Of a DNA stretch of 22,506 nucleotides, positions 2,754-21,449 are shown in pieces. The stretch covers positions 1-22,506 of the IMG/VR virus record IMGVR_UViG_3300030116_003980; one strand, written 5' to 3'. The notes beneath the pieces are model-generated. The model ran no database searches and was not told the origin of the DNA. It saw nothing but the letters and a program-made list of their open reading frames with translations. The DNA is from a virus. A program made the translations under genes and the position numbers. Numbering within the stretch: position 1 is the first letter of the stretch; every line of letters starts with the position of its first letter.

Positions 2754-3758
2754 ATGTGCGGAATAGTCGCCTATATCGGTAAAGGTACACCGATTAATAA
2801 ATTAATGTACCTAATGAACGACAACGATAGTCGTGGTGGTCACTCATCGGGTGCCTACATAAACGGTAATGTGTACAAATGTTTAGACGAATCGTCTAAT
2901 TTATTATCTATTATTAACGAAACAGATATAAATTGTTTTGTTGGTCATACACGTTACGCAACTCACGGTGATAAAACTGCTGAGAACACACACCCATATA
3001 CATATGGTAAATACATAGGTGTACACAATGGTGTGTTAAGTAACCATGACGAGACTATGACTTCTCATAATCTTGACAAGGTAGATGTAGACAGTAAAGC
3101 AATATATGCTTTATTAGAAGAAACAAATGATGTACATACTCTTGGTGCACATGCTGGTACAATCAACGCTGTTTATGTTGATATAACTACAGGTGAGCTT
3201 AATGTATATAGACGTAACAATCCTCTGTTTAGATTTAGAACTGATGACGGTATATTCTTTAGTTCTTTAAAAGAAGGTCTTGAAATTATAGCTGAACAAT
3301 TTGGATATGAAAAAGATAAAGTAAAGGAAGTAACTAAAGATAAACTTTTTACATATAATCCTGATGGTTCATTAAAATGTTCTATGGAGATTCAAGTTAC
3401 AGCTATAGAAACAACGCCAAGCAAGCAATGGTATGAGTATGGTAATTATTATAGTCCTGGAATTAAAACTAGAGATTATACTAATTATAGTAATAGCTGG
3501 TCTAGAGCAGATGAAGATGCTTGGAATAGGTCTTGGAATATAGAGCCTGTGCAAGATACTCAAGGTGGTGTACATTCTTCTGAAGAAGAGTATATTGATT
3601 GGTATTCTGATGATTGGTATACTGTAATGCAAGAAGGTTTAGACCTTGTTACAGATATGTTTAAAGACATTAAAGCTTGTAATACTCTTGATTCTGTTGA
3701 TGAAGCAAAGATAGAGCAGTTTATTAAATTATGTGAACAGGAGGTGTATCAATCATGA
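2754..3758 (+). CDS. Class II glutamine amidotransferase domain protein, 334 aa
   Basis: The N-terminus MCGIVAYIGKG places a Cys at position 2, the Ntn-type nucleophile of class II glutaminases, which release ammonia from glutamine. GHTRYATHG (residues 64-72) and HNG (91-93) match the glutamine-binding signatures of GlmS/PurF/AsnB-type domains, and GAHAGTINAVYVD follows at about 131-143. None of the usual partner domains (sugar isomerase, phosphoribosyltransferase or AsnB synthetase) is present. The last 110 residues are acidic and rich in Tyr and Trp and are not recognised. The enzyme must hand ammonia or a glutamyl group to a separate partner, and the amidoligase 140 bases downstream is the obvious one. 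It overlaps the next small gene by ATGA. Confidence 0.9.
   Translation: MCGIVAYIGKGTPINKLMYLMNDNDSRGGHSSGAYINGNVYKCLDESSNLLSIINETDINCFVGHTRYATHGDKTAENTHPYTYGKYIGVHNGVLSNHDETMTSHNLDKVDVDSKAIYALLEETNDVHTLGAHAGTINAVYVDITTGELNVYRRNNPLFRFRTDDGIFFSSLKEGLEIIAEQFGYEKDKVKEVTKDKLFTYNPDGSLKCSMEIQVTAIETTPSKQWYEYGNYYSPGIKTRDYTNYSNSWSRADEDAWNRSWNIEPVQDTQGGVHSSEEEYIDWYSDDWYTVMQEGLDLVTDMFKDIKACNTLDSVDEAKIEQFIKLCEQEVYQS
3739..3744 (+). promoter_or_regulatory. Shine-Dalgarno site AGGAGG
   Basis: A perfect AGGAGG lies 10 bases before the ATG at 3755, inside the end of the amidotransferase gene. Nearly all other starts in the window have only A/T-rich leaders, as is usual in Bacteroidota, so this site is unusual. 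It supports the 53-codon gene at 3755 and favours its first ATG over the one at 3758. Confidence 0.75.
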
Positions 3759-3916
3759 TGGAAAAATTATTAATGCTCGTTGCAGATTCAGAATTTGCAG
3801 AAGAGCTATACCAAGCTATTGATAAGCTTGAAGAACGTAATGGTAAAAGCCCTGATACAAAAGAGCTTAGAAGTTTAATAGATAAAACCTTTGAGTTATG
3901 CCAGGAAATCCGTTAG
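3755..3916 (+). CDS. Small acidic protein between amidotransferase and amidoligase, 53 aa
   Basis: This short frame begins MMEKLLMLVADSEF and ends in CQEIR. It overlaps the amidotransferase stop by four bases (ATGA) and the amidoligase start by 19 bases. It has a strong Shine-Dalgarno site. The product is helical and acidic, with no membrane segment. Its fixed place between two partner enzymes suggests an adaptor, a subunit, or a peptide carrier for amide ligation, but the family is not recognised. Confidence 0.7.
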   Translation: MMEKLLMLVADSEFAEELYQAIDKLEERNGKSPDTKELRSLIDKTFELCQEIR

Positions 3917-5412
3917 AAGAATTTGTTCCAAATATTCCTGTTACAGCACGATTTAATATTCAGTCTAGCAATATTGCATCTGAAGATTGTTATATAAAAA
4001 TACCAACTGATTGGTTTAAAGAATTGTTAGATGATGGTGTGCTTTATAATGACATACTTTATACTGTACAAACTCATTTATCAAGTGTAACATATTGTGG
4101 TACAGGTAGATGTAGAAGAACTATATGGTATTATGCAAAATGTATGCATGATGGTAATATAAGCAGAGATAACAATCCTTTTAGTAGTGATGATTTTAAC
4201 TTATCTATGCCATATGTTGATTTGTTTTTGAGTATATATAACCATGTATATGATGACAAAGGTTGGTGTTTTATTGATGATGGTTATGCTATTGAACCTC
4301 GCGACAATGGTGCTGTATTAATTGGAGAAGAAGGAGATAGCGAAAGCTATTGGCAGTATGAAGATGAAGTTAGGTGGGGTCAATGTTTTCACGGTGAAGG
4401 TTATGTAGATTTGCAAGCTGGTGATTATTGTTATTCAGAGCGTGATGATATATATTTTGATTGTGATGATACAGCTAGTAATAATTATTATCATTGGCGT
4501 GAGTGTTGTGAAGACTATGTACATGAAGATACTGGTGAGTGTTGTGACCGTTACAGAGATAATGAATCTAGTTTTGATAACTGTTATCATCAAATGGGTA
4601 AAACATCTTATCTTAATACAAGTTCAATGCATTATACGTTTGGTGTTGAGATTGAAACATGTACAAGAAGGTCTGTAGATTATACTGACCTTAACCTTAA
4701 AAGCGTTGAAGACGGTTCTATAGAAGGTTATGAGTATGTTACTGGTGTGCTTGAAGGTGATAAGGGTGTTGCAATGCTTAAAAGCATATGTAGAGAGCTT
4801 AGAACTTCTGAAACATTAGTAGACAGAAAGTGTGGTGTACATATACACATTGGTAATACTATATTCAATCGTAGATTTTCTATAATGCTATTAAAGCTTT
4901 GTAAGATGATTGAGAAAGATATATATAGTATGTTACCACCATCTCGTGCTGATAACAGTTATTGCAAGTTATTGCCAGATACTGTAAACAGAATGAATCT
5001 TCATAATTATAAATCTACGCTTGGTCCTTTTGTACAAGGTGTTGATATAAGCAGACAATATAATAAGAAGACTGGTCACCCTGGTGGTCATTACAATAGT
5101 CAGCGATACTATTGGGTTAACTTAACTAATTGCAGTGCGCGTACAGGCCCTGAAACAGTTGAGTTTAGACCTCATAGTGCTACTATTGATTTCAAAAAGA
5201 TATACAATTGGTTGTTGATTTGTATGTCTATTGTTAAGTTTGCTGAGAACAATCAAAGAAGAATTATAACTGCAGGTTTTAGCCGTAAAGGTAATGTAAC
5301 TTTGCATGAAGTTCTTAAAGATAGTTTGAATGACAGACTTTATAATAGTGTGTGGACTTATGTTAAGAACAGAGCCGAAGGTTTTGGTCATAATTTAAGC
5401 GTCACAGAATAA
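3898..5412 (+). CDS. Amidoligase-family (COOH-NH2 ligase) protein with acidic Cys-rich N-terminal region, 504 aa
   Basis: The C-terminal half carries the signatures of the Amidoligase_2 family, a glutamine-synthetase-like group of ATP-dependent carboxylate-amine ligases. These are FGVEIE (248-253), EDGS (271-274), GYEYVT (277-282), CGVHIHIG (312-319) and VEFRPHSAT (421-429). The first 240 residues are separate. Residues 150-230 are dense in Asp, Glu, Tyr, Cys and His, including RECCEDYVHEDTGECCDRYR (201-220), and could bind metal or act as a substrate-docking region. It probably joins an amine or ammonia to a carboxylate, fed by the class II amidotransferase just upstream. Substrate unknown; cell-wall peptides, proteins or small metabolites are all possible. 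Long for the family because of the N-terminal extension. Confidence 0.85.
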   Translation: MPGNPLEEFVPNIPVTARFNIQSSNIASEDCYIKIPTDWFKELLDDGVLYNDILYTVQTHLSSVTYCGTGRCRRTIWYYAKCMHDGNISRDNNPFSSDDFNLSMPYVDLFLSIYNHVYDDKGWCFIDDGYAIEPRDNGAVLIGEEGDSESYWQYEDEVRWGQCFHGEGYVDLQAGDYCYSERDDIYFDCDDTASNNYYHWRECCEDYVHEDTGECCDRYRDNESSFDNCYHQMGKTSYLNTSSMHYTFGVEIETCTRRSVDYTDLNLKSVEDGSIEGYEYVTGVLEGDKGVAMLKSICRELRTSETLVDRKCGVHIHIGNTIFNRRFSIMLLKLCKMIEKDIYSMLPPSRADNSYCKLLPDTVNRMNLHNYKSTLGPFVQGVDISRQYNKKTGHPGGHYNSQRYYWVNLTNCSARTGPETVEFRPHSATIDFKKIYNWLLICMSIVKFAENNQRRIITAGFSRKGNVTLHEVLKDSLNDRLYNSVWTYVKNRAEGFGHNLSVTE

Positions 5413-11419: not shown

Positions 11420-12167
11420 AGGTATAATTACAGATGATAATTATTATCAAGATAGAGAATACATATCATCTAGCATGGTGAAGCAGGCTTTACAAGGAAG
11501 CAAGAAGCGGTTTGATTACGCAATGGAGCAAACAATAGAAAGCGAGGCATTACTTGTAGGGTCTGCATTCCATGCTATGATGTTAGAACCTGATGAATAT
11601 AAAAAACTATACGCTTTTGAACCAGCAATGGATAAAAGAACCAAAGCAGGTAAAGAATATATAGCAACTTGGAAGGAGGAGAACAAAGACATACCGTATC
11701 ACCTCCCTGGTAAGCATGAAGAAATGCTTATTAATATGCAAGAAAGTTTAAGTAATCATCCTGGATACAAAAAATTAATTGGTGATGGAGAACGCGAAAC
11801 AATTAAATTATTTGAACTACAAGGAACTAAATGTAAAGCTAAAGTAGATTATTACGATACTAAAGATAATTACATAGTAGACATTAAAACATGTAACTCT
11901 GTAAATGTAGATGATATAATTGAATCTATTAAAAAGTATATGTATGGAATACAAGCAGCGTTTTATTTAGATGGACTAAAAGCGCATAAGTTTTATTTTG
12001 TGTTTATAGAAAAGAAAGCTCCTTACGATGTAGTAATAGTAGATTTTGTATCAGGTTTAGAAGAAGGTCGAAAAGCTTACGCAGCAGGTATAAAAAACAT
12101 ACTTAGTTTTAAAGAGATGGGTGACAAGACGTGTTACAATATGTTTAACAAAATACTACAACTATAA
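11400..12167 (+). CDS. RecE-like PD-(D/E)XK exonuclease, 255 aa
   Basis: The motifs of the phage exodeoxyribonuclease VIII-like family are in order: SMVKQALQGSKKRFDY (25-40), GSAFHAMMLEP (54-64), the catalytic strand KAKVDYY (146-152, Asp150), DIK (161-163, Asp161 and Lys163) and YGIQAAFYLDGL (182-193, Gln185). It would chew one DNA strand to expose ssDNA for the Sak4-like annealing protein and SSB. The ATG at 11400 gives a 20-base overlap with the upstream gene; an in-frame ATG at 11379 would add 7 residues. Confidence 0.85.
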   Translation: MSILKNEGIITDDNYYQDREYISSSMVKQALQGSKKRFDYAMEQTIESEALLVGSAFHAMMLEPDEYKKLYAFEPAMDKRTKAGKEYIATWKEENKDIPYHLPGKHEEMLINMQESLSNHPGYKKLIGDGERETIKLFELQGTKCKAKVDYYDTKDNYIVDIKTCNSVNVDDIIESIKKYMYGIQAAFYLDGLKAHKFYFVFIEKKAPYDVVIVDFVSGLEEGRKAYAAGIKNILSFKEMGDKTCYNMFNKILQL

Positions 12168-12520
12168 TGCATACGGTATTTGTATATGGAACATTACGAA
12201 GTGGTTATAGTAATCACTTCATAATGTCTCCTACTGTAAAGATAGGAGATGGTGTAACTAAAAATAAATATGCTTTATATTCAACTGGTATACCGTTTTT
12301 AGTAGAAGACGAACAAGTATCTAGAGTAAAGGGAGAAGTATATTTTGTAGATGAAACTACGTTTGAAATACTTGATTCTCTTGAAGGTCACCCAAGATGG
12401 TATACAAGAAAACTTATACCTGTAATGGTAGATGGAAAAGAATATACAGCATGGACTTATTTTAATAAACCTGCTGGTAAATTAATTAAATCAGGAGATT
12501 ATGCAGAGAAATCAAAATAA
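12167..12520 (+). CDS. Gamma-glutamylcyclotransferase (AIG2/GGCT-like) protein, 117 aa
   Basis: The N-terminal VFVYGTLRSGYSNH carries the YGTLR signature of the GGCT fold, and LDSLEGHPRWYTRKLIPV (about 70-87) matches the block with the conserved catalytic-region glutamate. Members release 5-oxoproline from gamma-glutamyl amines or peptides. In this phage it is the natural partner of the amidotransferase and amidoligase at 2754-5412, although it lies 6.7 kb away among recombination genes. The start overlaps the previous stop (TAATG). Confidence 0.87.
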   Translation: MHTVFVYGTLRSGYSNHFIMSPTVKIGDGVTKNKYALYSTGIPFLVEDEQVSRVKGEVYFVDETTFEILDSLEGHPRWYTRKLIPVMVDGKEYTAWTYFNKPAGKLIKSGDYAEKSK

Positions 12521-15664: not shown

Positions 15665-16047
15665 TACATTATATTTTTTTCGCTTACACCTATATCTATA
15701 AGCCATTGTTTAATTTTAATACCTGGAGATTCGTCAAAATATAACGAAGCAGAACCTATTTTAAGATGCTGATTATATAATAAATGATACATTACTATAT
15801 TTTCTAAGCTATCATACTGCTTCCAGGTGGCGGTGTCAGCAACTTTACCATCTAGTTTACCGCCTATATAAGCTATATGCTTGTAGGACTCACATGTAGT
15901 TGGGTGTTCTGACTCTACCGCTCTGTACCTTGAAAGCTGTCCATTAAAGTGTATTATATCGCAAGATACAGATAAATTATATTCTTTTTTTTCGGGTACA
16001 TGTTTATATTCAGTACCAGTAGAGTGTATTATTAAATACTCAATCAC
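15664..16047 (-). CDS. T7-lysozyme-like amidase fold with lost metal ligands, 127 aa
   Basis: Several blocks align by eye to N-acetylmuramoyl-L-alanine amidases of the Amidase_2 type. They are YLIIHST (4-10), IAYIGGKLDGKVADTATWKQ (58-77) and the end IGSASLYFDESPGIKIKQWL (97-116). In T7 lysozyme zinc is held by two His and one Cys. Here the first His (His8) remains. The GH of the second block reads GS (Ser99), and the CPSFD block reads SPGIK (Ser107 for Cys). Hydrolysis is therefore unlikely. The protein may bind peptidoglycan or regulate, as T7 lysozyme binds RNA polymerase. It follows the holin-like gene (ATGA overlap). Confidence 0.68.
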   Translation of the reverse strand: MIEYLIIHSTGTEYKHVPEKKEYNLSVSCDIIHFNGQLSRYRAVESEHPTTCESYKHIAYIGGKLDGKVADTATWKQYDSLENIVMYHLLYNQHLKIGSASLYFDESPGIKIKQWLIDIGVSEKNIM

Positions 16048-16430
16048 TTTTTTCTTATTTTCTCAATACTGCGTCCTGCAAAATATGCACCATACACAGT
16101 AATCAAAAGTGTTTGATATATAGGAATATACGCTGGAGCTATTTCAAACCCACCAGCATTACCATCAAATATAGATATAACAACAAACATTGCTGTTAAA
16201 AATATGCATATTAATGGTCTTATATTTTTAGAAAGCCAGTTATCAGACTTCATGTCGGCTTCCCATCGCCTTGTGACTTGTTCTTGAGCCTGGGACTCAG
16301 CTTTCATCATTACTTCTTTTATGGCTTTTTTAGCAGCCATAGCTTCTTCTTTAGACGTAGATAAATTATCTATTACATTACCTACTTTTTCTATCACTCC
16401 CCCACTTAAAAAGCTTAATAATTTGCTCAT
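16044..16430 (-). CDS. Holin-like membrane protein, 128 aa
   Basis: Two membrane helices lie at about 72-88 and 101-119, after a long helical N-terminal part rich in Ala, Glu and Lys. The block WLSKNIRPLICIFLTAMFV (65-83) matches the Holin_3TM family seen in phages and gene transfer agents. It lies between the M15 endolysin and the amidase-like gene and overlaps both. Likely role: permeabilising the inner membrane to time lysis. Confidence 0.8.
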   Translation of the reverse strand: MSKLLSFLSGGVIEKVGNVIDNLSTSKEEAMAAKKAIKEVMMKAESQAQEQVTRRWEADMKSDNWLSKNIRPLICIFLTAMFVVISIFDGNAGGFEIAPAYIPIYQTLLITVYGAYFAGRSIEKIRKK

Positions 16431-16900: not shown

Positions 16901-17239
16901 TTAAAACGCTTCCATTATTATTTCATCTACCGACTCCTGTACTTCTTTTCTAGTAGCCTCCATCGTCATCATAATATTTGCCTGAAACCTTTTTACCTCT
17001 TCATTGTTGTTAAAAACTACTAATGTAGGAACTACAACAATTTTATATTCACTTGCCCATCTAGAGTCTGTTGTTATATCGACTCGTTCTGTATCACAGT
17101 CTGTAAGCTTGTTTAACCAAGCTACTTCATTGGTTTTGTTAAAACTAGCATTAAATTCTACTACATGTAAACCATTAGGAAAATCTTGTGAACATGCAAT
17201 TGTTGATAAAAGAAAAATTATATATAGTAACTTTTTCAT
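16901..17239 (-). CDS. Thioredoxin-like lipoprotein lacking the CXXC motif, 112 aa
   Basis: MKKLLYIIFLLSTIACSQ is a signal peptide with a lipobox-like end, so Cys16 is probably lipidated. VVEFNASFNKTNEV (26-39) occupies the place of the thioredoxin WCGPC segment, but Asn34 and Asn37 replace both cysteines. VVVPTLVVFNNNEEVKRFQ (68-86) keeps the cis-Pro loop. It cannot do disulfide exchange by the usual route. I recall similar proteins in Bacteroidota phages. It sits between the endolysin and a membrane/coiled-coil protein, so an envelope role in lysis is possible. Confidence 0.75.
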   Translation of the reverse strand: MKKLLYIIFLLSTIACSQDFPNGLHVVEFNASFNKTNEVAWLNKLTDCDTERVDITTDSRWASEYKIVVVPTLVVFNNNEEVKRFQANIMMTMEATRKEVQESVDEIIMEAF

Positions 17240-17243
17240 AATC

Positions 17244-17528
17244 TTATCTTAATTTATCAATCTTCTCTTCCATTCTAATCATTTGGGTTTTTATTTCTTT
17301 TACATCGTCTTGTGTAGTCATAATAGTCTGTCGAATAAGTTGGTCCTTCATATCGTATTCCATACGAGTAATTTCAGGGTCAGGAGGGAGGGGTAGTTCT
17401 TTAGCTTCTGTTATGTCTGATTGCAAGGTAAACCACATACCTACAAGTGTGAAGATTAGTACTGCTATTCCAGCTAAAGTTTTTATACTTAACTGTAAAG
17501 TTGTGTCTTCATTTATTTCTTTTGCCAT
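17244..17528 (-). CDS. Membrane protein with coiled coil, inner-spanin-like candidate, 94 aa
   Basis: A short N-terminal stretch, one membrane helix (about 15-35), a Pro-rich link (PLPPDPE) and a long heptad-type helix to the end (55-94, with EIKTQMIRMEEKIDKLR). This is the shape of an inner-membrane spanin subunit, with the coiled coil in the periplasm. A lipoprotein gene follows at once, as in two-gene spanins, but that lipoprotein has an unusual thioredoxin-like fold. Family not recognised; the spanin idea rests on layout only. Confidence 0.6.
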   Translation of the reverse strand: MAKEINEDTTLQLSIKTLAGIAVLIFTLVGMWFTLQSDITEAKELPLPPDPEITRMEYDMKDQLIRQTIMTTQDDVKEIKTQMIRMEEKIDKLR

Positions 17529-17530
17529 GA

Positions 17531-18565
17531 TTAAAATATTACATAATTAATTCCTACACTAAAGTTATGCCATTGTCTGTTCCAATACTTATTATATCTT
17601 CCTTCTACAAATATACCTAAACTTTTGTTAAATCTATAGCCATATATTAAACCAACAGAATAATCAATCCATTGACCACCTTTATAGTTATAATAAGAGT
17701 ACTCATTATTTGTATCTAAATGATATGGCATTATGTTTCCCCAAGTGTGAAACCAAAAATCTTTTGTAAAATGATAATAGTCTAAACCAAACACAAAAGA
17801 ATACTCAACAATATTTTTTAAACTATTTCTTTGTTTTTCTACATAATTATTTATAACTTCAGGTATAATAACTTCTTCCCACACTTCTTGACTATTTGCA
17901 ACAAGAGTTCCATCAGGAGAAAAATACTCTCCATCTAACGTAATAGAGTAACCCTCTTGGATAGCAAGGTAAGTATAATGGAGACTACCATTAGCGAGTA
18001 CCCACTCGTCCAGAGGGTTGAAGCCGTAGGGTTCGGCAAGTCTTTGCACTAAACCCCCGTTAAACGAAAGCTTGCCGTCCCTTACTTTTAATCTAAATCT
18101 TTCAGATGCTTCAAAATATTTTATATCAGCAAACCCATCTTCCAGGTATTCAACTTTTGTTACCCAGCTGTCTGCTACATATCTTACAAAGTGGTGTTGA
18201 TTAATATAATTAATTCCTAATCGTCTTACAAAATCAGCTTCAAATAAATATTCAAAGCCATCGACTCTACCAATGGTGGCTGCATCACTATATGAATTTT
18301 CTGTACCATTATAAAAAGTAAGAGCCCTGTTTTCATATCCAAATCGTTTTATTTTTCTAAGTCCTATAGATATATTATAATCAAATGGAGTTTTTATAAC
18401 ATCTTCTTGTAAAGAACCAGAGGTAACAGACCATATTTGGTTGTCCCCTAATGATGTACCACCATTAACTGCAGCATAAAATGTAGAATATTTAAATATT
18501 TTATGTAAAGCTTGTGCGTTACCTATAAAAGGAATTAACAATAAAACTATAAGTAACTTTTTCAT
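17531..18565 (-). CDS. Exported outer-membrane beta-barrel-like protein, 344 aa
   Basis: MKKLLIVLLLIPFIGNAQA is a clear signal peptide. The mature part is rich in aromatic and glycine residues with alternating patterns, and the end IFVEGRYNKYWNRQ then FSVGINYVIF has the terminal aromatic residue expected of outer-membrane barrels. Blocks such as GLDYYHFTKDFWFHTWGNI and YSVGLIYGYRF look like barrel strands. The family is not recognised. It overlaps the T9SS-sorted protein gene by four bases and is made right after it, so the two may act together at the host surface. Confidence 0.72.
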   Translation of the reverse strand: MKKLLIVLLLIPFIGNAQALHKIFKYSTFYAAVNGGTSLGDNQIWSVTSGSLQEDVIKTPFDYNISIGLRKIKRFGYENRALTFYNGTENSYSDAATIGRVDGFEYLFEADFVRRLGINYINQHHFVRYVADSWVTKVEYLEDGFADIKYFEASERFRLKVRDGKLSFNGGLVQRLAEPYGFNPLDEWVLANGSLHYTYLAIQEGYSITLDGEYFSPDGTLVANSQEVWEEVIIPEVINNYVEKQRNSLKNIVEYSFVFGLDYYHFTKDFWFHTWGNIMPYHLDTNNEYSYYNYKGGQWIDYSVGLIYGYRFNKSLGIFVEGRYNKYWNRQWHNFSVGINYVIF

Positions 18566-20739
18566 TTCTTTAATACTTTTGTAGTGCTTGTGTTACCTTT
18601 ATATGTAACGTTAAAATTATATACGCCTGTAGGTAACAAGCTTACATCTAATTGATTAAGACCTTTGTGTGTTTGGTTTTCTTTTATTTTAATAATAAGT
18701 TTTCCTGATACATCATATACTTTTATTCCTACACGTCCGTTTGTTAATATATTTAACACATCACCCATAGGGTTAGGGTACATAACTATATTATGACCTC
18801 TAAGTAAATCTCTTGTATCAAGTGGACTATCTCCATTACAATGCCAATATAATTGTTGACACTTTTCATCCCAAGAATTGTTACAACAATAAGGGTCTAC
18901 TATAATAACCCAAGCATAACAAGTATCATTTAACCAATATGGATTACCAGGACCATCAACACAACCTGCATCATATAAACATTCAGCGTCTGTATTAGCA
19001 AAAGGCTCATAATTATATGCATCAGCATCCATGCAACCTTCTACAATTAATTCACACTCGTCTTCCGTATTTGCAAGAGAGTCATAATTAAATGCTGTGC
19101 TGTCCATACAACCATATATAAATGGTATACAGCTAAAATCTTCTGTATTAGCTTCTTCATTGTAATTATAAGCTTCTGGGTCAGTACAACCAAGAACTGT
19201 TGTAAAACAAGCTCCTTCTAACTCTATATTAGCTATAGGGTCATAGTTGTCAGCCATAGGGTCCATGCAACCAAAGTACAAACAAGAACTATCTGAAACA
19301 TTTGCTGCGTCATTAAAGTTCCATGCTATTGAGTCCATACATCCATATACAAAAGACTCACACTCTCCATCATCTACGTTAGCTAAAGAGTCATAATTAA
19401 AAGCAAGAGAGTTTGTACAGCCATATACTACAGGTATACAACTATTGTCGCTTGTGTTAGCCTCTGGGTTGTAATTAAATGCATCTTCTTGCAAACAACC
19501 ATATACTGTTTCTATACAATAATCTCCACAATAAGGTAATGCGCTATATATATGCCAAAATGGTGGTTCAAAAGGCTGTAAAGCTCCTGCACCATTCATG
19601 GCAAAAGGGTTCGCACCTCCTGATATTAATAAATCTAAATGCTCATTATATAAAAAGAAAGAGTTGTGCATTGTTTGAAACTCTAATTCTTCTTGTGGTA
19701 CTTGTGGTGGCCCTAATTCAAAATACCTAATATGCACAGGCATGTCTGTTCTTAAATATAACCACTTAATTTCTTCGTATATACCAGGACCTAATGTATA
19801 AACTCCGTGTATACTATCTCCTTGTGTAACGGCTAAATGTGAGTCTCCCCATCCATCTCCGCCAGCGTCATTTAATACTAACTTATACTCACATACAGGT
19901 ATTATATCATTTAATGTGGCTTCAGGGTCGTAATTATATGCATTCCAATCTAAACAACCTACAATGTGTTCTGTTTCACAACTACCATCGTCTACTTGTG
20001 CAAATGGATTAAACTCCATGTATGCAGTATTCATACAACCATACACAGTAGGTATTTCACAATCTTCTACATATATAACGCCTGAATATGCTGCAGCTCC
20101 AAAATTAGAATCAGGTAACTCCCACAATACATCAGGACTACCACAAGGCTCTAAGTCTCCCATAATAGTAAAGCTACCATCAGAGCCACCCCATTGACTA
20201 CCACCTAAACCATCACCGTATGTATCACTTAATATAAGCTCTACGCCTGTTTCAGGTACACATACTTGATATGGTATTGTAGAATTAGCCTGACTATATG
20301 TATACTCACCTGCCATTACGCTTTCTACTGGTTGACCTGTAGTTATATCTGTAAGTATCCAACCTGTTTCTCCAGGATATTGGTCAAGCGTTATTTCTAA
20401 AAGCATTTTAGCTTCACCCTCACCACACTCTACATTAGCACAACTACCATTGTCTGTATCTGCTAAAGGGTTATAATTTATAGCCTCAGGGTCCATACAC
20501 CCAGGAGTAATATTTGGGTCTATTGGTAAAGGACAGTCACCTTCATCAAAGCCAAATTCAGGACAGTTAAAATCTATAAAATAACCATTCCAGGAATAAG
20601 CATTGTTATCACAATAACCATCACCTAACCATTCTTCAGGAGCTTCGTTTCCTGCACAATCTACAAATATTGAATCTTGAGAAAATGCGTTAAGAGTTAT
20701 AAACGCAATAAGATATAGTAATTTTTTTAGCATTTCCAT
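18562..20739 (-). CDS. Phage-encoded T9SS-sorted surface protein with LNR-like domain and ten Cys repeats, 725 aa
   Basis: The order of parts is: signal peptide (1-20; the second Met at residue 3 is also a possible start); an LNR/Notch-like Cys module with LGDGYCDNNAY and FGFDEGDC (28-69); and ten modules of the pattern GC-x-D-x-x-A-x-N-Y-x-P-x-A-x-x-D-x-x-C, at about 80-100, 234-254, 261-283, 414-434, 440-460, 466-486, 490-511, 517-537, 543-562 and 568-587. Two longer insert domains (104-230 and 284-408) hold YGDGLGG and GGDGWGD, which may bind calcium. A Cys-rich module YCCNNSWDEKC (617-627) follows. The end (648-725) has VMYPNPMGDVLNI, KVYDVSGKLI and LPTGVYNFNV, the type A sorting domain that directs cargo through type IX secretion. 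It is made together with the barrel protein. Confidence 0.9.
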   Translation of the reverse strand: MEMLKKLLYLIAFITLNAFSQDSIFVDCAGNEAPEEWLGDGYCDNNAYSWNGYFIDFNCPEFGFDEGDCPLPIDPNITPGCMDPEAINYNPLADTDNGSCANVECGEGEAKMLLEITLDQYPGETGWILTDITTGQPVESVMAGEYTYSQANSTIPYQVCVPETGVELILSDTYGDGLGGSQWGGSDGSFTIMGDLEPCGSPDVLWELPDSNFGAAAYSGVIYVEDCEIPTVYGCMNTAYMEFNPFAQVDDGSCETEHIVGCLDWNAYNYDPEATLNDIIPVCEYKLVLNDAGGDGWGDSHLAVTQGDSIHGVYTLGPGIYEEIKWLYLRTDMPVHIRYFELGPPQVPQEELEFQTMHNSFFLYNEHLDLLISGGANPFAMNGAGALQPFEPPFWHIYSALPYCGDYCIETVYGCLQEDAFNYNPEANTSDNSCIPVVYGCTNSLAFNYDSLANVDDGECESFVYGCMDSIAWNFNDAANVSDSSCLYFGCMDPMADNYDPIANIELEGACFTTVLGCTDPEAYNYNEEANTEDFSCIPFIYGCMDSTAFNYDSLANTEDECELIVEGCMDADAYNYEPFANTDAECLYDAGCVDGPGNPYWLNDTCYAWVIIVDPYCCNNSWDEKCQQLYWHCNGDSPLDTRDLLRGHNIVMYPNPMGDVLNILTNGRVGIKVYDVSGKLIIKIKENQTHKGLNQLDVSLLPTGVYNFNVTYKGNTSTTKVLKK

Positions 20740-21026
20740 CTTCTTCTAGCTTGACGTATTCTTGAATTAGGATTATTTCTTGTTTTTGCACTACTTCTTT
20801 TTAGTTGACCTAACGAACGAGCACAATATGATTTACGTCTTTTAGCTGCTTTACTACCTTTCTTAACTTTACCTGTTACAGCAGTCTTAAGCTTGCTACC
20901 AGGGTTAGCTTTTCTATATGCTCTAACACCTTTTGCTGTCATACCAGCTCCAGATTTTGTAGAACGATAGTTTGCGCCTTTACCCTTGGTGGTTCTTCTT
21001 ATAGGGTTTTCTTTTTTTCTAGGCAT
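20727..21026 (-). CDS. Basic marine-phage protein, DUF6321-like, 99 aa
   Basis: A Lys/Arg/Gly/Ser-rich chain with the segment GMTAKGVRAYRKANPGSKLK (28-47), then TAVTGKVKKGSKAAKRRKSY (48-67) and CARSLGQLKR, and RIRQARRRWKC at the end. I recognise this pattern from cyanophages and other marine phages (DUF6321-like). Its role is not known; a DNA-binding or virion-internal role is possible. It overlaps the T9SS cargo gene slightly and abuts the next basic protein. Confidence 0.8.
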   Translation of the reverse strand: MPRKKENPIRRTTKGKGANYRSTKSGAGMTAKGVRAYRKANPGSKLKTAVTGKVKKGSKAAKRRKSYCARSLGQLKRSSAKTRNNPNSRIRQARRRWKC

Positions 21027-21241
21027 TAGTCGTATTGTTTTTCAAAATTACACTTAGAACATACCATACCACCATGTGCATAGCTTTTACGCTTTTTCTT
21101 TTTAGCAGTTTTAGCAGCTCTTCTAAAATTAGCATCAGTTGGTGCGCCTTTAGCACCTTTTTTTCTCATTTTCTCTCCGCTTCCTGCTTTAATTCTCTTG
21201 CGTTTCGCATGTATGTTTGCGTATAATCCTCGTTTAGCCAT
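21026..21241 (-). CDS. Basic marine-phage protein with CxxC pair, 71 aa
   Basis: The start MAKRGLYANIHAKRKRIKAG and the following SGEKMRKKGAKGAPTDANF are typical of a small family frequent in marine phages. The C-terminus has CSKC (a possible zinc site) not far from His54. I chose the ATG at 21241 because it gives the family N-terminus; an in-frame ATG at 21283 would overlap the previous gene further. Function unknown. Confidence 0.8.
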   Translation of the reverse strand: MAKRGLYANIHAKRKRIKAGSGEKMRKKGAKGAPTDANFRRAAKTAKKKKRKSYAHGGMVCSKCNFEKQYD

Positions 21242-21449
21242 TTTTTGCAAATTTTTCAACGCCTGATATACCAAAACAGCCAAGCACTACCCATACAAAT
21301 GAATTATATACATAATCATTAATAATTAAATCTTTACCTACCCAACCTGTTACAAGGTCAGCTATCATAATCATGCACATAACTGCAAATGCTATAAAGC
21401 CTACTATAGCTTTTTCATTCCAAGCGTTATCGTTTTTAAATATTTCCAT
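21234..21449 (-). CDS. Two-helix membrane protein, possible second holin, 71 aa
   Basis: Two hydrophobic stretches lie at about 14-36 (AIVGFIAFAVMCMIMIADLV) and 46-64, with a short polar link. Size and shape fit a small holin or a virion membrane protein. The other holin candidate is at 16044. It sits upstream of the basic proteins and overlaps both neighbours. Family not recognised. Confidence 0.65.
   Translation of the reverse strand: MEIFKNDNAWNEKAIVGFIAFAVMCMIMIADLVTGWVGKDLIINDYVYNSFVWVVLGCFGISGVEKFAKNG

Follow-up and report, generated by a model that had tools for sequence, protein, structure and literature searches.

Why would a phage carry a protein addressed to the type IX secretion system (T9SS) of its host, and what could such a protein do at the cell surface? 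Phages are rarely viewed as clients of complex host secretion machines, and the question is raised by a gene of IMGVR_UViG_3300030116_003980, a linear virus record of 22,506 nt (22.5 kb) that was analyzed over its whole length and is referred to below as the window. A first-pass annotation had proposed that this gene codes for a phage cargo of the host T9SS. The proposal holds as a prediction from sequence and fold, with one refinement: the cargo gene heads a cassette of four genes, the others coding for an outer-membrane barrel (the usual immediate partner of the cargo), a 94-aa protein and a protein of thioredoxin fold. The gene product appears to be addressed to the host T9SS, hence display on, or release from, the infected cell is to be expected. 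The cassette consists of:

18562..20739, minus strand: predicted T9SS cargo gene, 725 aa, intact open reading frame (ORF), first gene
17531..18565, minus strand: predicted outer-membrane beta-barrel, 344 aa, second gene; its start overlaps the cargo stop (ATGA, 4 bp)
17244..17528, minus strand: third gene, 94 aa, one N-terminal membrane helix and a charged tail
16901..17239, minus strand: fourth gene, secreted thioredoxin fold without CxxC, 112 aa (thioredoxin E 1.8e-4 / 6e-5)

Linkage of the four genes and the T9SS sorting domain

We show by comparison of viral sequences a conserved cassette, linkage among its genes and a conserved sorting domain on its cargo. Searching the viral collection with the barrel alone provided an unbiased test of cargo linkage for homologues at 57-89% identity. 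Across all searches, the cargo was present at 103 of 107 distinct barrel loci, 78 of which have the 4-bp overlap. At two of the four remaining loci the contig ends within a sorting domain, of which the final 31 and 73 residues are visible, and the other two leave no room for the gene; wherever it could be visible, the cargo lies beside the barrel (105 of 105 loci). Close whole-protein relatives of the cargo occur in other viral contigs, and a cargo profile detected a relative, partial matches included, in at least 581 viral stretches. The gene order itself varies, with the cargo after the thioredoxin gene at three loci (L011, L092, L158) and the small genes first at two others (L015, L088); despite such changes, the four genes nearly always appear to stay together.

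The features read within the cargo are:

18565..18795, minus strand: T9SS type A sorting domain, residues 649-725
20680..20739, minus strand: signal peptide, residues ~1-20, read by eye; cleavage probably before QDS
20533..20658, minus strand: LNR-like four-Cys motif, residues 28-69, from alignments; not a Pfam Notch domain
20065..20427, minus strand: first beta-rich domain, residues ~105-225, motif TLDQYPGETGW..DTYGDG, from alignments and model
19525..19893, minus strand: second beta-rich domain, residues 283-405, motif D.GGDGWGDS, from the model
18979..19500, minus strand: main Cys-repeat block, residues 414-587
18838..18963, minus strand: Cys-rich module YDAGC..PYWLNDTCYAWVI.VDPYCCNNSWD..CQ..Y..C, residues 593-634, from invariant alignment columns

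The type A sorting domain claimed in the first pass was borne out by profile and by fold. Both Pfam (PF18962, 47.6 bits against a cut-off of 27, E 2.1e-12) and NCBIfam (TIGR04183, 40.6 bits against a cut-off of 23, E 1.8e-10) matched above their curated cut-offs. In an AlphaFold2 model of the cargo built on 42 relatives, residues 649-725 are well modelled as an immunoglobulin (Ig)-like fold of seven strands, which matches the T9SS-bound tails of NucA and RemA (Z 8.6 and 8.5, rmsd ~2 Å over 71-73 residues) as well as the C-terminal domains of mirolase (Z 8.1) and RgpB (Z 7.2); the FspA tail, bound in the Flavobacterium T9SS translocon, is also among the best fold matches. A fold search with the whole model returned trusted matches for the sorting domain only.

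By Pfam, 72 of the 76 full-length relatives retain the domain (42/42 closer, 30/34 more distant ones), and all 34 virus records of 22-246 kb that were picked for holding the gene carry it, 32 of them exactly once. Judged by a dN/dS of 0.19, which like the other dN/dS values given here comes from pooled, non-independent pairs 80-98.5% identical, the sorting domain is under purifying selection. In some relatives (e.g., L057 and L070 versus the rest) its sequence is sharply different despite a well-conserved adjoining module. Because these divergent domains sit beside the well-conserved Cys-rich module, the pattern suggests that tails have been swapped while the function was kept. On inspection of the C-termini, relatives at L009, L011, L092 and L160 end in another tail, ITDLLGRPV...YIYDDGSV..KKI, whose type occurs in 54 of 148 Flavobacteriales genomes and which, from its sequence, is likely a sorting tail as well, maybe a T9SS one for which Pfam and NCBIfam hold no model.

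The rest of the cargo resembles an adhesin in its make-up. As the first pass had it, the N-terminus looks like a signal peptide, apparently of Sec type, with a sequence typical of flavobacterial signal peptides when read by eye (MEMLKKLLYLIAFITLNAFSQ); it is hydrophobic in the relatives despite sequence divergence, and by eye typical in most complete ones. The ten Cys repeats of form GC-x(5-7)-[NF]Y..C were likewise recovered, against at most two (mean 0.06) in 5,000 shuffles of the same protein. Three of them lie outside the main block (residues 80-100, 234-254 and 261-283), and the repeat number ranges from ~7 to 33 across relatives, one of which has a MAM domain and another CBM48-like matches. 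The second beta-rich domain is weakly like CBM60 (vCBM60, Z 6.5 over 95 residues, under the trusted level), and dN/dS is ~0.10 over residues 100-230. The Cys-rich module is the most conserved part of the cargo (dN/dS 0.07). Residues 19-77 and 588-640 are mostly of low confidence in the model.

A module read earlier as LNR-like fared worse. A canonical LNR has six Cys forming three disulfides; the motif C..W.GDG.CD...C.EF..D.GDC, kept in the closer relatives, has four conserved Cys, and no Pfam Notch match was obtained in the cargo at E<=1 or in 42 relatives at E<=0.1. We therefore rejected the LNR/Notch assignment, and with it the link to eukaryotes drawn from it.

Of the partner proteins, the barrel starts with a signal-peptide-like sequence (by eye), has long antiparallel strands and ends in a C-terminal F. 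Its model (pLDDT 78) has 12 long strands and matches OmpG at Z 11.6 and other barrels at Z 9-11.6; its dN/dS is 0.09. None of 65 barrel homologues matched the PorP/SprF family in Pfam at E<=1, and chain F of the T9SS complex 8gl6 came up at E 2e-3 and TM 0.29 among many unrelated barrels. The 94-aa protein reaches a hydropathy peak of 2.1 at residues 17-35, followed by the charged tail, which is likely periplasmic and probably a coiled coil. The CxxC motif is missing from the fourth protein and from all 99 of its relatives.

Phage context, distribution and origin

Around the cassette, and elsewhere in the window, the following genes were identified:

20727..21026, minus strand: DUF6321 basic protein, the upstream gene, with a 13-bp overlap with the cargo start
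21234..21449, minus strand: small membrane protein, 71 aa
16427..16894, minus strand: M15 peptidase endolysin (phrog_894, E 1e-35), next gene downstream of the cassette
16044..16430, minus strand: holin (GTA_holin_3TM, phrog_3427)
2754-3758, plus strand: class II glutamine amidotransferase (PF13522)
3898-5412, plus strand: amidoligase (PF12224, E 7e-20)
12167-12520, plus strand: gamma-glutamyl cyclotransferase (PF06094, E 1e-25)

The last three genes, all present in the window phage, are of the kinds that in sets make up peptide- or wall-modifying systems. In several large-phage loci, a relative of the 71-aa membrane protein immediately precedes the cargo gene.

Cys repeats and sorting domains are both common in Flavobacteriales, which could favor the view that the cargo gene is misassembled host DNA or a recently acquired host passenger. 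Domain and profile scans identified a DnaB helicase, RecE-like and Mre11-like nucleases, a 3TM holin and the M15 endolysin in the window, and the same gene order is repeated in ~100 viral contigs. The barrel is nearly missing from cellular genomes: it was found in 1 of 296 Flavobacteriales and 1 of 395 Bacteroidota genomes, in both cases a metagenome bin with a viral contig, and on this distribution we regard it as virus-specific. A collection of 84,980 species yielded just four cargo matches, three on contigs with cassette genes, apparently viral contigs in metagenome bins, and a fourth that covers a short stretch only. Given the holin, endolysin and helicase neighbors and the order repeated in ~100 viral contigs, the cargo region is phage DNA; the conserved context rules out the misassembly that the first-pass annotation had named as a possible refutation, and to a host passenger we give a vanishing probability. 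Host contamination should not be presumed whenever a viral contig carries a sorting domain. The lytic type ascribed to the phage fits with the lack of a tyrosine-type integrase in the 34 virus records picked for the cargo gene.

The cassette is found on dissimilar backbones, namely 60-kb phages with terminase, portal and GroEL, and UvsX-type phages of more than 120 kb. One 60-kb phage (G006) has a terminase (phrog_6681) and a portal (phrog_6547), both identified by scanning its proteins, along with GroEL and GroES; phrog_2, tried as a terminase marker, was rejected as it matched 11 of 14 control genomes. A 155-kb record (with locus L148) codes for a single-strand-binding protein, a UvsX-like recombinase, a replicative helicase and a ribonucleotide reductase. 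The four cassette genes alone are common to G006 and loci L148, L013 and L015 over the stretches of up to 22 kb compared, while elsewhere these phages may share more. Grouping of backbones by shared genes is coarse because the loci are fragments: nearly all merged at two shared genes, and 14 groups resulted at three. The gene after the cassette is an M15 endolysin in G006 and the window, and an unrelated endolysin with a peptidoglycan-binding domain (amidase type) at L148, L013 and several others. That the cassette holds the same place beside unrelated lysis enzymes argues for a link with lysis or, failing that, with late expression. In G006, GroEL (phrog_5725, E 9e-135) and GroES (phrog_3188) are encoded close upstream of the cassette (L163:8961-11454), and one record of 245,646 bp (246 kb; G026) holds two cargo-barrel pairs (L141, L145) more than 100 kb apart.

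Consistent with the earlier remark that such repeats are common in flavobacterial adhesins, we found them in 209 of 296 Flavobacteriales genomes, and the raw material of the cargo is thus host-like. The donor to be sought in host genomes was not found: apart from a cassette-bearing metagenome-bin contig, the listed best matches span query residues ~383-644 only, and the genomes sampled held no host protein with the whole cargo architecture and no partner barrel. Among cultured phages (a collection of 50,697 records) the barrel had no match, and the cargo had repeat matches in Synechococcus phage S-CAM3 only. Repeat proteins outside the cassette are:

L166:7569-9119: S-CAM3 protein annotated as a virion structural protein, two Cys repeats
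L098:3133-7833, L102:28-7557, L107:46-9033, L160:1-4422: giant repeat ORFs, ~1,500-3,000 aa, one cut at the contig end

The S-CAM3 protein has neither signal peptide nor sorting domain, and cyanobacteria are not known to have a T9SS. The giant ORFs, three of which were scanned and gave no PHROG match, possibly code for virion fibers; they share the Cys repeats of the cargo with no signal peptide or sorting tail. Repeats alone therefore do not mark a secreted protein, and the combination of signal peptide and sorting tail appears specific to the cassette gene.

Proposed export route and competing roles

A T9SS cargo needs a Sec signal peptide and a C-terminal domain, the latter reportedly being necessary and sufficient for secretion in the cases tested; type A cargos use PorV, and for some cargos there is a dedicated barrel that retains them, PorQ for PorZ and SprF for type B cargos (PMC10202324). 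With this precedent, the phage cargo would exit through the T9SS and then be held at the surface or shed. We favor a late envelope cassette of marine Bacteroidota phages whose cargo is exported by the host T9SS and masks surface ligands, at a probability of roughly 0.55. This figure blends two parts of different strength, as export through the T9SS within the cassette is highly probable and masking is a tentative proposal.

In this model, the cargo would be translated from a late operon, coupled with the outer-membrane barrel. Sec would export it to the periplasm, where it would fold with its 36 Cys probably paired, and the host T9SS would recognize its Ig-like C-terminal domain and pass it through the SprA/PorV translocon, after which the PorU sortase would cut off the tail or a barrel would hold it. 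These two export steps are the ones in which we have high confidence, based on the domains. The Cys-repeat rod would come to stand on the cell surface or be shed. Its likely partner in the outer membrane is the phage barrel, a pairing to which we give even odds, and the two other cassette proteins, of the inner membrane and the periplasm, may help assembly or link the layers. The infected cell is thus probably made to bear a phage protein on its outside just before it bursts. Finally, the cargo might cover ligands on the surface and so keep progeny virions and competitors from attaching to the infected cell, or to its debris, around lysis.

Masking around lysis, already among the roles proposed in the first pass, is ranked first here, albeit tentatively. 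It draws support from the giant ORFs, possible fibers that could bind the same ligand as the cargo, and the S-CAM3 virion structural protein with its two repeats was counted in its favor. Several points weigh against it. A protein made late, from a gene beside those for lysis, has little time to be displayed, and the position suits a lysis role equally; the fiber role of the giant ORFs is a guess, given their lack of PHROG matches; the repeats may be mere spacers, common as they are in host proteins; classic superinfection exclusion takes one protein rather than four; and with the barrel in no cultured phage, the host is known only indirectly. An interaction with eukaryotes through LNR modules, the other role suggested earlier alongside masking and adhesion, is unsupported, and a role in lysis or egress has to be added.

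In that added role, which we place second and consider rather unlikely, the four proteins would form a chain across all envelope layers that opens up or weakens the outer membrane during lysis, doing the work of spanins. The cassette directly precedes an endolysin in many loci, be it M15 in one group or the unrelated amidase type in another, with a holin after the endolysin in many of them, and each envelope layer receives one of its proteins, whose genes nearly always occur together. The 94-aa protein, with what appears to be a single N-terminal membrane helix ahead of a charged tail, has a layout as expected of an i-spanin. A spanin survey lists Bacteroides phage B124-14 and Croceibacter phages P2559S/Y as spanin-less (PMC6139136), and it is such phages of Bacteroidota without recognizable spanins that give this role its interest. 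However, the cassette supplies no o-spanin lipoprotein: a lipobox-like start was seen in 1 of 99 thioredoxin-fold proteins and no lipoprotein signal elsewhere in the cassette. The scans made gave no sequence match to spanin families, cargo and barrel lie away from the small genes or any recognized lysis gene in some loci (L140-L152), and unimolecular spanins exist in some flavobacterial phages (PMC8776804). The more far-reaching version, in which a virus-specific, transferable cassette spans from inner membrane to surface, borrows the T9SS and replaces spanins at lysis of Bacteroidota, seems to us less likely again.

Action outside the cell ranks third and is about as doubtful as that version: the exported protein would, to the advantage of the phage, make infected cells or debris clump or adhere to particles, or would bind third parties such as grazers. 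Its adhesin-like make-up of repeats and beta-rich domains, the relatives with MAM domain or CBM48-like matches and the variable repeat number speak for it, and T9SS adhesins are common in Flavobacteria; yet nothing ties the cargo to any ligand, and its position beside lysis genes would be left unexplained. Least probable among the roles is that cargo copies bind progeny particles on release as an accessory receptor-binding protein. The same repeats do occur in the cyanophage structural protein and in the giant ORFs of cassette phages, but those lack signal peptide and sorting domain, which would take the cargo out of the cytoplasm, where particles are assembled. Because of these two signals, a cargo that is a virion component only, the outcome named at first as a refutation, is unlikely.

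A conserved cargo in so many marine phage contigs would mean routine borrowing, during infection, of the T9SS, which is a hallmark of those Bacteroidota that break down algal matter at sea. The cassette is a testable candidate for receptor masking or for an unexplained outer-membrane lysis step.

Comparison with known systems

Phage superinfection exclusion by outer-membrane proteins is known from the T5 lipoprotein Llp and the Lc porin of phage PA-2, which act singly and make no use of a T9SS; if masking is right, the cargo is alike in being a phage-coded surface protein that blocks adsorption. Spanins (Rz/Rz1; PMC6139136) are brought to mind by the apparently i-spanin-like layout of the 94-aa protein and by the location of the cassette beside endolysin and holin, whereas the cassette lacks a lipoprotein partner and a sequence match and has a beta-barrel and a T9SS cargo instead. 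Among host systems, SprB/SprF and PorZ/PorQ are similar in that an outer-membrane beta-barrel is encoded alongside a T9SS cargo or retains it (PMC10202324). However, the tail of SprB is of type B and SprF is a PorP/SprF family member, while on the phage side the cargo tail is of type A and the barrel has no such Pfam match. Host flavobacterial T9SS proteins with GCTDP.A.NYNP repeats share the repeats and the kinds of sorting tails, but none sampled has the whole cargo architecture or the partner barrel.

The closest precedent is Cryophage (2020), for which three variable phage-coded T9SS cargos are known from sequence and whose authors already raised the ideas of a hijacked host system and of superinfection exclusion (PMC7468147); a study of crAss-like phages also mentions sorting domains (PMC6949934). 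The first-pass statement that no characterized example exists therefore holds for function and not for the existence of phage T9SS cargos. Cryophage and the window alike have phage genes with T9SS type A sorting domains. In Cryophage these are three enzyme-like or PA14 proteins that vary between strains of one phage, whereas the window cassette has one conserved Cys-repeat protein, locked to a barrel and two small envelope proteins, across many lineages and adjoining lysis genes. While phage-coded T9SS cargos are thus not new, a four-gene lysis-region cassette with its own barrel, present in several lineages, appears to be new with respect to the open-access literature.

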